Assembly (NCBI GenBank): GCA_002695005.1
Contig: NZNT01000019.1
Coordinates: forward strand, 186,001-250,000
DNA length: 64,000 nt
DNA from: Maritimibacter sp.
GTDB lineage: Bacteria > Pseudomonadota > Alphaproteobacteria > Rhodobacterales > Rhodobacteraceae
Direction: 5' to 3'
Shown here: positions 54,207 through 55,969 of the stretch, piece by piece
Layout of the letters: each line of letters starts with the position of its first letter
Numbering within the stretch: the first letter of the stretch is position 1
The notes under the pieces: model-generated
Database searches by the model: none
What the model was told of the DNA's origin: nothing
Seen by the model: the letters and a program-made list of their open reading frames with translations, nothing else
Translations under genes and position numbers: made by a program

Positions 54207-55214
54207 ATGGCCACTATCAGGGCTGAGAACACCGAGATTGCGAAAGCGACCGGCTCGAACATCAATTCGAGCGGGGACGAGTCGGATTTCGACCTGCCGC
54301 TTACGGACATGACCGATCTGGTCATCTACACGCCGCTGCTCGATTTCGATCCGTACATGTTCGATCTCGGTGAGACGCATACGCTCACCTGGAATGACGG
54401 CGACGGCGCCCACACCATGTACAATGCCGAAGTCGTCCGGTCGGACCTCAAGTGGGGCACCGCCAATCAGGGCGCTGTCGTCTTCGAGGGCACAGACACG
54501 GATGGCAACGATGCACAGATCCTCTGGACACCGGACCTGAACGTTCACCAGTGGTATGCGGACACGCAGGCCGACGGCAAACACCCGATGTTCTGGAATG
54601 TCGACCAACACTCCTCCACCTATGGCTACGTCTGTTTCGCCGCCGAGACGCGGATCGAGACGGACAAGGGGCTCAAGCGCATCGACAGTCTGAAAGTGGG
54701 CGACCGGGTCGCTACGCTGGACAACGGCTATCAGGAAATCCGCTGGGTCGGTCATCACCGGACCGATGGCCGGGGCGACGCCGCGCCGATCCATATCGCC
54801 AAAGGCGCAATGGGCCGCAATCAGGCGCTGCGCCTGTCTCCGCAGCACAAGGTCGTCATCCGGGATGTCGCGTTCAAGCAGGTGCTCGGCCAGGCACAGG
54901 TCATGGTCGCCGCCAAGTCGCTCGAAGGCCGTCCGGGCGTCACGCGCCAGCCGGTCGAGACGGTGGACTACTACAATATCTTGTTCGACCGCCATGAGGT
55001 GATCTTTGCCGAGGGGCTCGCCTGCGAGTCGCTCTACTTGGGACAGATCGCCGAAACGCTGATCGACCCCGACGCGGTCGACCCGACCCAGCACTATCCC
55101 GATCTCGCGCGCCTCAAGATCGACCGCCACCCCGAAATGGCCCGCCCCACGCTGACCGTGGGCGAAGCGCGCCGCTATTTCGGCTTGCTCGATGCGGACC
55201 TGGTTGCCGCCTGA
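54207..55214 (+). CDS. Hint-domain protein with C-terminal Hint_2
   Basis: 335-residue protein. Residues 1-145 are acidic and of unknown fold. A Hint module (hedgehog/intein type, Hint_2 group) starts at CFAAETRIETDKGLKRIDSLKVGDRVATLDNG and runs past DYYNILFDRHEVIFAEGLACESLYLGQ. Hint_2 modules are common at the C terminus of Rhodobacterales secreted proteins and are thought to autoprocess or tether them. No signal peptide is visible, so export may use a type I system. It ends 30 bp before the sRNA array on the other strand. Confidence 0.75.
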   Translation: MATIRAENTEIAKATGSNINSSGDESDFDLPLTDMTDLVIYTPLLDFDPYMFDLGETHTLTWNDGDGAHTMYNAEVVRSDLKWGTANQGAVVFEGTDTDGNDAQILWTPDLNVHQWYADTQADGKHPMFWNVDQHSSTYGYVCFAAETRIETDKGLKRIDSLKVGDRVATLDNGYQEIRWVGHHRTDGRGDAAPIHIAKGAMGRNQALRLSPQHKVVIRDVAFKQVLGQAQVMVAAKSLEGRPGVTRQPVETVDYYNILFDRHEVIFAEGLACESLYLGQIAETLIDPDAVDPTQHYPDLARLKIDRHPEMARPTLTVGEARRYFGLLDADLVAA

Positions 55215-55235: not shown

Positions 55236-55278
55236 AAAACAAAAACGGTGACGCCCGGGAGGAGGTGGGCGCCACCGT
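55236..55278 (-). terminator. Intrinsic terminator of the sRNA array
   Basis: The last array hairpin (read on the reverse strand) has a 12-bp GC-rich stem at 55245-55256 and 55267-55278 with one G-U-type mismatch pair. It is followed on the reverse strand by TTTTTGTTTT (complement of 55236-55245). Strong stem plus T-run is the intrinsic terminator pattern and fixes the transcript direction as reverse. Confidence 0.7.
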
Positions 55279-55585
55279 TCTTGCAAGCAATCGGCTTCAG
55301 GGAGGAGGTAGAAGCCTTTCGCGTATCGCGCGGGGTTGCCCCCGTATGTTGCCCGTCGACCCCAGGGAGGAGGAGAGGGGTGTTCGGGTCACGGTCGCCC
55401 CAGGGAGGAGGAGAGGGGCTTCCGATCTTTTGGCCGGTGACGCCCGGGAGGAGGTGGGCGCCACCGACTATGCAGATCTTCCCGGGAGGAGGTGGGAAGG
55501 TCCGTATTGGGGACCCGGAGGCGCGTTAGGGAGGAGGAGACGCTGTCCGGGTCATCAGGAACCTCAGGGAGGAGGAAGAGGTTCC
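55245..55585 (-). ncRNA. CcsR/cuckoo-type sRNA array, eight CCTCCTCCC-loop hairpins
   Basis: Eight consecutive inverted repeats at 55245-55278, 55293-55316, 55359-55381, 55397-55419, 55435-55466, 55475-55502, 55512-55553 and 55558-55585. The stems differ in sequence (5 to 12 bp, compensatory), while every loop contains the same nine bases, CCTCCTCCC on the reverse strand. This anti-Shine-Dalgarno loop, placed directly after a DUF1127 gene, is the hallmark of the Rhodobacter CcsR1-4 'cuckoo' RNAs, each described with two such hairpins; eight hairpins would make about four sRNAs. They should be co-transcribed with the DUF1127 gene and processed. Copies 1 and 5 are identical over 32 nt. The known members are stress-induced; stress control here is inferred. 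Confidence 0.85.
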
Positions 55586-55594
55586 CGAAAACTG

Positions 55595-55813
55595 TTATTT
55601 TTTTCCGTAGGCCGCTTCGCGGGCGATGAACGGGATTTCGGCGCGCGAGATGCCGAGGTCGGCAAGATCGCGACCGTTGAGGGCGCGCAACTCGGCCAGC
55701 GTGGTGCGGTACACCTTGCGCTGGGCGCGGGCGTCGCCGAAGGATTTCAGCAGAGTGGACACGCGGTCGAAGAGGCCGTGGTCGGAATGGCGGATATCGG
55801 TTGCGTAAGCCAT
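55595..55813 (-). CDS. ccaF1: DUF1127 small protein (CcaF1-like)
   Basis: 72-residue basic protein ending in the DUF1127 block RTTLAELRALNGRDLADLGISRAEIPFIAREAAYGKK. In Rhodobacter sphaeroides the gene in this position (CcaF1) encodes a small RNA-binding protein that affects processing of the CcsR RNAs downstream. The stop lies ten bases before the first hairpin of the array. The start at 55813 is the family start; a longer frame upstream lacks similarity. Gene symbol is given by position and family, not by search. Confidence 0.85.
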   Translation of the reverse strand: MAYATDIRHSDHGLFDRVSTLLKSFGDARAQRKVYRTTLAELRALNGRDLADLGISRAEIPFIAREAAYGKK

Positions 55814-55952
55814 GTCGTCTTTCTTTCTCGTCTTGAGCGCCTGTCTGCGGCGCGGTGCGGATGCCGTTCTGCGAAGCGCTGTGCCCCGCTCGGTTGAGAT
55901 GAAGATGGGCGATTTGCTGCACCTGCACAATCCGCAGAAGGTTCAATGCCGC

Positions 55953-55969
55953 TATGCAGCAAATGCATA
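55953..55969. promoter_or_regulatory. Palindrome in the DUF1127/mrp divergent region
   Basis: TATGCA-GCAAA-TGCATA is a perfect 6-bp inverted repeat about 140 bp upstream of DUF1127 and 125 bp upstream of mrp. It is a plausible operator for one of them. No clear sigma-32-type promoter could be fixed by eye in the same gap. Confidence 0.35.

Follow-up and report, generated by a model that had tools for sequence, protein, structure and literature searches.

An eight-hairpin anti-Shine-Dalgarno RNA array downstream of a DUF1127 gene in Maritimibacter, with a conserved RpoH-like promoter core and a candidate LysR-type box

Organization of the locus

In the 64,000-nt stretch of Maritimibacter sp. 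DNA analysed here (the window), the minus strand carries a gene for a 72-aa DUF1127 protein, followed by eight hairpins that each display a CCUCCUCCC loop (55588-55239). The first of the eight CCTCCTCCC motifs lies 19 nt past the DUF1127 stop codon, on the same strand. The original prediction had placed a CcaF1-like gene ahead of the array, and the profile match listed below bears this out. The hairpins were located by motif search and folding, and the T-tract was read from the sequence; in the direction of transcription the features are:

55944-55968, minus strand: putative composite LysR-type (VtlR/LsrB-like) box, ATGCATTTGCTGCATAGCGGCATTG, 0 mismatches
55926-55931, minus strand: -35-like element ATTGTG, within a second box-like stretch, TTGTGCAGGTGCAGCA; TTGTGC is conserved among related leaders (see below)
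55903-55909, minus strand: -10-like element CCCATCT, RpoH-like, 16 nt past ATTGTG (compare the S. meliloti RpoH1 consensus, below)
55595-55813, minus strand: DUF1127 gene, 72 aa, CcaF1-like (PF06568, E 4.3e-10)
55555-55588, minus strand: hairpin 1, loop motif 55567-55575
55512-55553, minus strand: hairpin 2, loop motif 55529-55537
55473-55504, minus strand: hairpin 3, loop motif 55484-55492
55433-55468, minus strand: hairpin 4, loop motif 55446-55454; inner stem the same as in hairpin 8
55392-55424, minus strand: hairpin 5, loop motif 55403-55411
55350-55391, minus strand: hairpin 6, loop motif 55365-55373
55293-55316, minus strand: hairpin 7, loop motif 55300-55308
55239-55284, minus strand: hairpin 8, loop motif 55257-55265; 18-bp stem, doubling as intrinsic terminator
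55236-55245, minus strand: terminator T-tract TTTTTGTTTT, overlapping the 3' side of hairpin 8

The array does end in an intrinsic terminator, as had been proposed, formed by hairpin 8 and its T-tract; such a tract follows the last hairpin only. Hairpin 8 is missing from the terminator scan because that scan takes loops of at most 8 nt.

Fold and conservation of the array

The CCTCCTCCC motif occurs nine times in the window, against 0.84 copies expected, and nine copies were reached in none of 100 shuffles. Eight of these are located on the minus strand at 55257-55575, and the ninth (52618) falls within the uvrD ORF. When the minus strand of 55236-55600 (365 nt) was folded, all eight motifs were presented in hairpin loops, with a minimum free energy of -169.1 kcal/mol (z -7.95) to which none of 100 dinucleotide shuffles descended. 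Motif search and fold thus confirm the eight hairpins with an identical reverse-strand loop. The start-to-start spacings of the motifs (38, 45, 38, 43, 38, 65 and 43) are compatible with an arrangement of four two-hairpin units.

The stems of the array are real, since they shrink to about half their length when 3' arms are exchanged between hairpins. The mean stem in the window measures 9.5 bp, as compared to 5.24 bp (sd 0.92) after swaps among its eight hairpins, and the same operation on 333 hairpins from 45 further Rhodobacterales-type loci reduced the mean from 9.63 to 4.90 bp (sd 0.10). By a simple stem count, five of the eight window hairpins possess at least 6 bp. The description of these stems as unrelated does not hold for all of them: hairpins 4 and 8 have a common stem, GGTGGCGCCC/GGGCGTCACC, and hairpins 5 and 6 a common CCCC/GGGG core, which suggests duplication or conversion within the array.

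For a comparison between species, the window was aligned to the sole other genome of the same genus in our draw (G229). No change was seen in the 72 loop columns, while 37 of 230 paired columns and 37 of 108 other columns differed. Among 115 base pairs, 84 are unchanged, ten are kept by a one-sided change and five by a two-sided change, with the remainder broken (12) or gapped (4). In these two species, therefore, the loops are held while the stems drift with partial compensation, in line with the selection on RNA put forward by the original prediction.

Assignment to the cuckoo/CcsR family

With the Rfam CcsR1 model (RF02791), hits were obtained to three of the four units (E 4.3e-9, 3.4e-8 and 0.0035), the third two-hairpin unit yielding weak fragments only (E 0.13 and 0.81). 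The best of these matches, at 45.0 bits, stays below the gathering score of 65.3 bits. Likewise, the ar14 model (RF02344) matches at two places with 53.5 and 43.5 bits (E 2.9e-8 and 5e-6), neither of which attains its gathering score of 58.8 bits. The covariance search that had been suggested as a check therefore gives low E-values for both families, so that the refuting outcome named beforehand, a search empty of significant hits, did not arise, yet Rfam's own rule would leave the locus unannotated. When the whole genome was searched with CcsR1, the array took ranks 1 to 3 (E 1.5e-9, 1.2e-8 and 0.0012) and the next place elsewhere had an E-value of 0.03; no match over the gathering cut-off was found anywhere in this genome.

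We nonetheless retain the assignment to cuckoo/CcsR, because the gathering score is an annotation threshold and not a structural feature, and the locus presents adjacent CCUCCUCCC-loop hairpins with variable stems and a DUF1127 gene just upstream on the same strand. The association of DUF1127 with CcsR-like RNA is known as the CIN1 locus (PMC10253847; also PMC7866481 and PMC8307010), and the window is placed in this ccaF1-CcsR (CIN1/cuckoo) type on account of its DUF1127 gene, four two-hairpin units and terminator. In R. sphaeroides, ccaF1-CcsR1-4 is described as being transcribed from an RpoHI/RpoHII promoter and processed by RNase E (PMC10253847, PMC7866481). The gene order of the window is that of R. 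sphaeroides, in agreement with the CcsR/cuckoo layout recognized at the outset; the two loci share a DUF1127 gene of about 71 aa, four two-hairpin units, CCUCCUCCC loops, a terminator and, by a loose sequence fit, an RpoH-like promoter. They differ in that the window has a candidate LysR-type box before the promoter, which goes unmentioned in the available portions of the R. sphaeroides descriptions, our basis for this comparison, and in that the Rfam scores of the window stay below the cut-off. Like the array, the rhizobial ar14/NfeR1 RNAs consist of adjacent hairpins (two to four) that display this loop; they differ in usually possessing three to four loops per RNA in the loci examined, and in that many of these loci are without a DUF1127 gene within 400 nt. 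NfeR1 of S. meliloti, moreover, is described as having a sigma-70 promoter (PMC10746234).

The 6C RNA family (RF01066) was also considered, its two hairpins with C-rich loops being alike. The locus scored 27.4 bits against a cut-off of 47 bits (E 0.79), and membership was rejected.

Occurrence of arrays in other genomes

Three suitably spaced exact loops are found in 121 of 394 family genomes, and a wider contig scan for loop arrays returned at least 120 stretches. Among the matches listed, 80 carried titles, of which 75 are alphaproteobacteria and one is assigned to Pseudomonadota only; the other four are Streptomyces, Bacteroidales, Actinobacteria and Cystobacterineae. The arrays examined range from 3 exact loops, which is the minimum of the search pattern, to 26, and eight is an ordinary number. 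The largest (L012, genome G165) holds 26 exact anti-Shine-Dalgarno loops in head-to-tail repeats of a unit that comprises three hairpins and measures about 140 nt. Genome G013 possesses two DUF1127-cuckoo operons (L240 and L262), with 6 and 3 exact loops, respectively, and the box described below at both.

A conserved promoter upstream of the DUF1127 gene

From 151 sequences, 75 loci with an adjacent DUF1127 gene (profile detection) were obtained, 74 of them with a start and 72 with 260 nt upstream. These 72 leaders comprise 46 that precede a protein of at least 65 aa (Rhodobacterales-type, the window included) and 26 that precede a shorter one (rhizobial-type). The 46 leaders contain a conserved block, roughly aTGCAnTTnCTGCATrGCnGCATTG, followed after about 12 nt by ATTGTGCAnncGCAGCAtt. 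TGCA-N6-GCA[TA] occurs in 44 of the 46 (0.3 expected from shuffles), TTGTGC likewise in 44, with two lacking it, and the 25-nt composite box in all 46 at no more than three mismatches (0.02 of 46 in shuffles). The exact TGCA-N6-GCA[TA] form is present in just 13 of 89 arrays from outside the Rhodobacterales, and no comparable promoter block stood out among the 8-mers listed for the 26 shorter, rhizobial-type leaders.

In up to 29 of 44 leaders, C[CT][TCA]AnnT lies 15-17 nt past ATTGTG. In the window, ATTGTG-N16-CCCATCT is a loose fit to an RpoH promoter, for which the S. meliloti RpoH1 consensus is given as CTTGAA-N16-CCTATAT (PMC8844928), and the promoter scan of the window gave no sigma-70 match. 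Judging from sequence, the promoter core resembles an RpoH promoter, preceded by a candidate LysR-type box.

A strict form of this promoter (42-43 bp) was found in 187 of 394 family genomes, with no hit to its reversed control in the same 394. It is nearly always single per genome, two copies being present in G048, G094, G168 and G381. At the 30 strict-promoter loci examined, at least one exact loop lies within 1500 nt downstream in every case, and a DUF1127 gene in 27. With 187 genomes against the 121 recovered by three exact loops, the strict promoter finds cuckoo operons that the loop pattern misses. The observation from which this study started is thus confirmed, and the original reading of it supported; the promoter is an addition to that reading. 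The array is one more member of a described RNA family, whereas the conserved promoter is the newer observation.

Genes accompanied by the composite box

Only two perfect sites of the composite box exist in this genome: that of the array promoter, and one in the gap between a LysR-type gene and SorX (RF02784; 56.3 bits against a cut-off of 46.6). The box with one mismatch precedes a DUF1127 paralogue of this genome (C20, L160), while none within two mismatches was found at two other DUF1127 genes (L181 and L182). At three mismatches, four more sites appear in this genome, as compared to three in the control.

Thirty further genomes were searched at no more than two mismatches, which gave 64 rows in 29 of them and none for the reversed control. 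With three rows set aside as the opposite strand of a palindromic site, 61 sites remained and were sorted by hand. Cuckoo arrays account for 27 and the LysR/SorX locus for 12; 10 more are at DUF1127 genes that have no array of at least three loops, three of these genes being weak profile matches (E 4e-4 to 2e-3), and the last 12 lie elsewhere. Since the box was derived from array leaders, the array sites are expected by construction, and the evidence resides in the 34 non-array sites. Of these, 22 are found at DUF1127 genes or at the LysR/sRNA pair, both of which the Rhizobiales regulon is known to contain. Ten of the 61 sites have two mismatches and none of the expected genes nearby. SorX scores above its cut-off near the LysR gene in five of nine genomes and in three of 20 further loci, all three with a LysR gene; it was not found above cut-off at the LysR loci L252-L254.

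Two of the sites elsewhere have neighbours of their own: one precedes a degenerate DUF1127-like ORF (L260), and the other, a perfect box, lies ahead of a gene resembling a sugar ABC substrate-binding protein (L256, genome G268).

A candidate LysR-type regulator

LsrB/VtlR is a regulator of plant- and animal-associated bacteria. The window carries TGCATTTGCTGCAT, of the TGCA-N6-GCAT or VtlR-like kind, within 55944-55968. NfeR1 is reported to have its LsrB site, TGCA-N6-GCAT, about 60-70 nt upstream of the start (PMC10746234). The VtlR motif reported for Brucella is CAATGCAGCCATGCA, which on the opposite strand reads TGCATGGCTGCATTG (PMC12595884). Many relatives have TGCATGGCAGCATTG, one base off this VtlR motif, and the window itself has TGCATAGCGGCATTG, two positions off.

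As a query for the regulator we used an LsrB/VtlR-type protein of Agrobacterium pusense, whose gene neighbours a thioredoxin-reductase-like gene as well as two ar15/AbcR matches. Its best match in the Maritimibacter genome is a LysR protein (C15:384523-385389; 250 bits, 41% identity), followed at a distance by one of 126 bits. This protein carries LysR domains, is encoded beside SorX and is the reciprocal best hit in both rhizobial genomes. Counterparts at 72-78% identity exist in all nine further genomes, at least seven of which are Rhodobacterales. LysR trees were built twice, with 32 rows and then with 26 after removal of six long-branched rows; a single clade with LsrB was not rejected (p-AU 0.35) but appeared in just 4% of bootstrap trees.

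The arrangement recalls the LsrB/VtlR regulon of Rhizobiales, with its AbcR sRNAs, DUF1127 genes and NfeR1, in that a LysR gene lies beside an sRNA gene, the box is near-identical, and DUF1127 genes and anti-Shine-Dalgarno sRNAs adjoin it. It differs in that SorX takes the place of AbcR and in the 41% identity of the proteins. From these sequence likenesses we infer that the LsrB/VtlR-DUF1127-sRNA circuit of Rhizobiales may also be present in Rhodobacterales. More specifically, we consider it moderately likely that SorX, the DUF1127-CcsR array and further DUF1127 genes are under the direct control of one LysR-type protein, the counterpart of LsrB/VtlR whose gene adjoins SorX, acting together with RpoH. 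No LysR-type regulator tied to CcsR/CcaF1 or SorX was encountered in the available text of the open-licence papers searched.

If this is true, the circuit from a LysR protein to DUF1127 and anti-Shine-Dalgarno sRNAs would predate the split of Rhizobiales and Rhodobacterales, against the recent statement, based on a published tree, that LsrB appears restricted to Rhizobiales (PMC11975290), and the number of anti-Shine-Dalgarno loops (up to 26 exact copies) would represent a fast-evolving output dose. The promoter furthermore offers a concrete candidate transcription factor for CcsR and SorX, the control of which is so far described, in the sources consulted, through sigma factors only. It also joins two bodies of literature, that on LsrB/VtlR, AbcR, NfeR1 and DUF1127 in Rhizobiales and that on RpoH, CcsR, SorX and CcaF1 in Rhodobacter.

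Proposed function and alternative explanations

We judge it probable that the locus is an operon of the ccaF1-CcsR type, giving rise to sRNAs that act by anti-Shine-Dalgarno pairing under RpoH-type and LysR-type control. This reading is built on the array itself, the loops held over changing stems, the gene order, the conserved promoter, the genes accompanied by the box and the reciprocal best hits, while expression, processing and target pairing are argued from analogy with relatives, and regulator binding is inferred. One minus-strand transcript would start slightly upstream of the DUF1127 gene and end at hairpin 8. Its transcription would most likely depend on an RpoH-type sigma factor and an LsrB/VtlR-related LysR regulator acting at 55944-55968; the candidate gene for this regulator lies elsewhere in the genome, beside SorX, which has the same box ahead of it. 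RNase E, modulated by the DUF1127 protein, would then process the 3' part, yielding some four two-hairpin sRNAs, as suggested by the R. sphaeroides system. Each sRNA would expose two unpaired CCUCCUCCC loops, able to pair with purine-rich Shine-Dalgarno regions and so to block the translation of a set of mRNAs. Such pairing by processed two-hairpin RNAs appears the most likely mechanism, for which NfeR1, an ar14 RNA that silences ntrB through its loops (PMC10746234), serves as the model.

It is unlikely that the hairpins serve mainly as a sponge for a protein, be it the DUF1127 protein, a cold-shock-like protein or another binder of C-rich RNA, instead of pairing with mRNA. Arrays differ greatly in size, with as many as 26 exact loops, as a titration device might, and CcaF1 of R. 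sphaeroides is reported to bind RNA (PMC10253847). Against this, the ar14 RNA NfeR1 is described as silencing ntrB in S. meliloti by pairing through its loops (PMC10746234), and several loci (L078 of Yoonia litorea, L298, which is the same as L010, L310 and L322) keep promoter and loops with no detectable DUF1127 gene, so that the neighbouring protein is not an obligatory partner. A reading of the array as neutral repeats of one family, or as a stack of terminators, with no function in trans has hardly any probability. Tandem expansion does occur, as the repeated unit of L012 illustrates; however, the loop columns are unchanged between two species whose stems have changed with partial compensation, a search that began from the promoter gave loops at all 30 loci, and a T-tract is present on one hairpin only.

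A further alternative leaves the operon as it is and concerns the promoter palindrome, which could be the site of PhaR, the PHB-sensing repressor, instead of a LysR-type regulator. PhaR of R. sphaeroides is reported to bind CTGCNNNGCAG (PMC12542648), and it was considered first because the palindrome fits this consensus in 30 of 46 leaders; a PhaR gene (PF05233) is, moreover, present in this genome. However, CTGCNNNGCAG has no copy in the window and none in the SorX box region, while two perfect copies lie upstream of a phasin-like ORF beside the PhaR gene of the same genome, and for this reason PhaR was set aside. At the PhaR locus no composite box was found; the box goes with DUF1127 and LysR/SorX genes. 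The PhaR explanation is accordingly very improbable, and a LysR-type regulator is retained as the candidate.

Search for targets

For the proposed anti-Shine-Dalgarno pairing, the exact pattern GGGAGGAGG-N3-11-ATG gave six matches in the whole genome, as compared to one for the reversed pattern. One match lies inside uvrD (window 52618) and two represent a single site with two ATGs; the four sites other than that in uvrD lead into two long ORFs, which by the look of their sequences resemble an ABC-type permease and a cytochrome P450, and into ORFs of 22 and 1 codons. Perfect sites are thus rare, a point against the main reading, and too few for a target set to be claimed; none is proposed.

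Avoidance of the operon's own loops by the DUF1127 ribosome-binding site was considered as well, and is not relied on here. GGAGG is present in the DUF1127 leader at one of 46 Rhodobacterales-type loci, as compared to 9 of 143 neighbouring genes, whose starts were called roughly (p 0.46), and to 8 of 42 window genes (p 0.012). The loop-pairing energy of the DUF1127 leaders does not differ from that of the 143 neighbouring genes (p 0.26).

Additional features of the locus

A Hint_2-domain gene (PF13403, E 1e-42) occupies 54207-55214 on the plus strand, convergent with the array, and in Yoonia litorea a second Hint_2 gene (L198, 2422-3540) separates the LysR gene from SorX. An open frame of 210 aa on the plus strand (55265-55897) runs antisense to the DUF1127 gene and the array. 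The GGGAGGAGG repeats probably give rise to it as an artefact, with a risk of mis-annotation. A short hairpin without CCUCCUCCC is located at 55331-55344, in the longer spacer between hairpin pairs, and spacer hairpins devoid of this loop are also seen in four relatives (L030, L048, L096 and L129). Finally, AATACG, GATACG or AATTCG-like stretches are frequent in the spacers before hairpin pairs of many arrays, in the window at about 55505 and 55345, and are possible RNase E sites.
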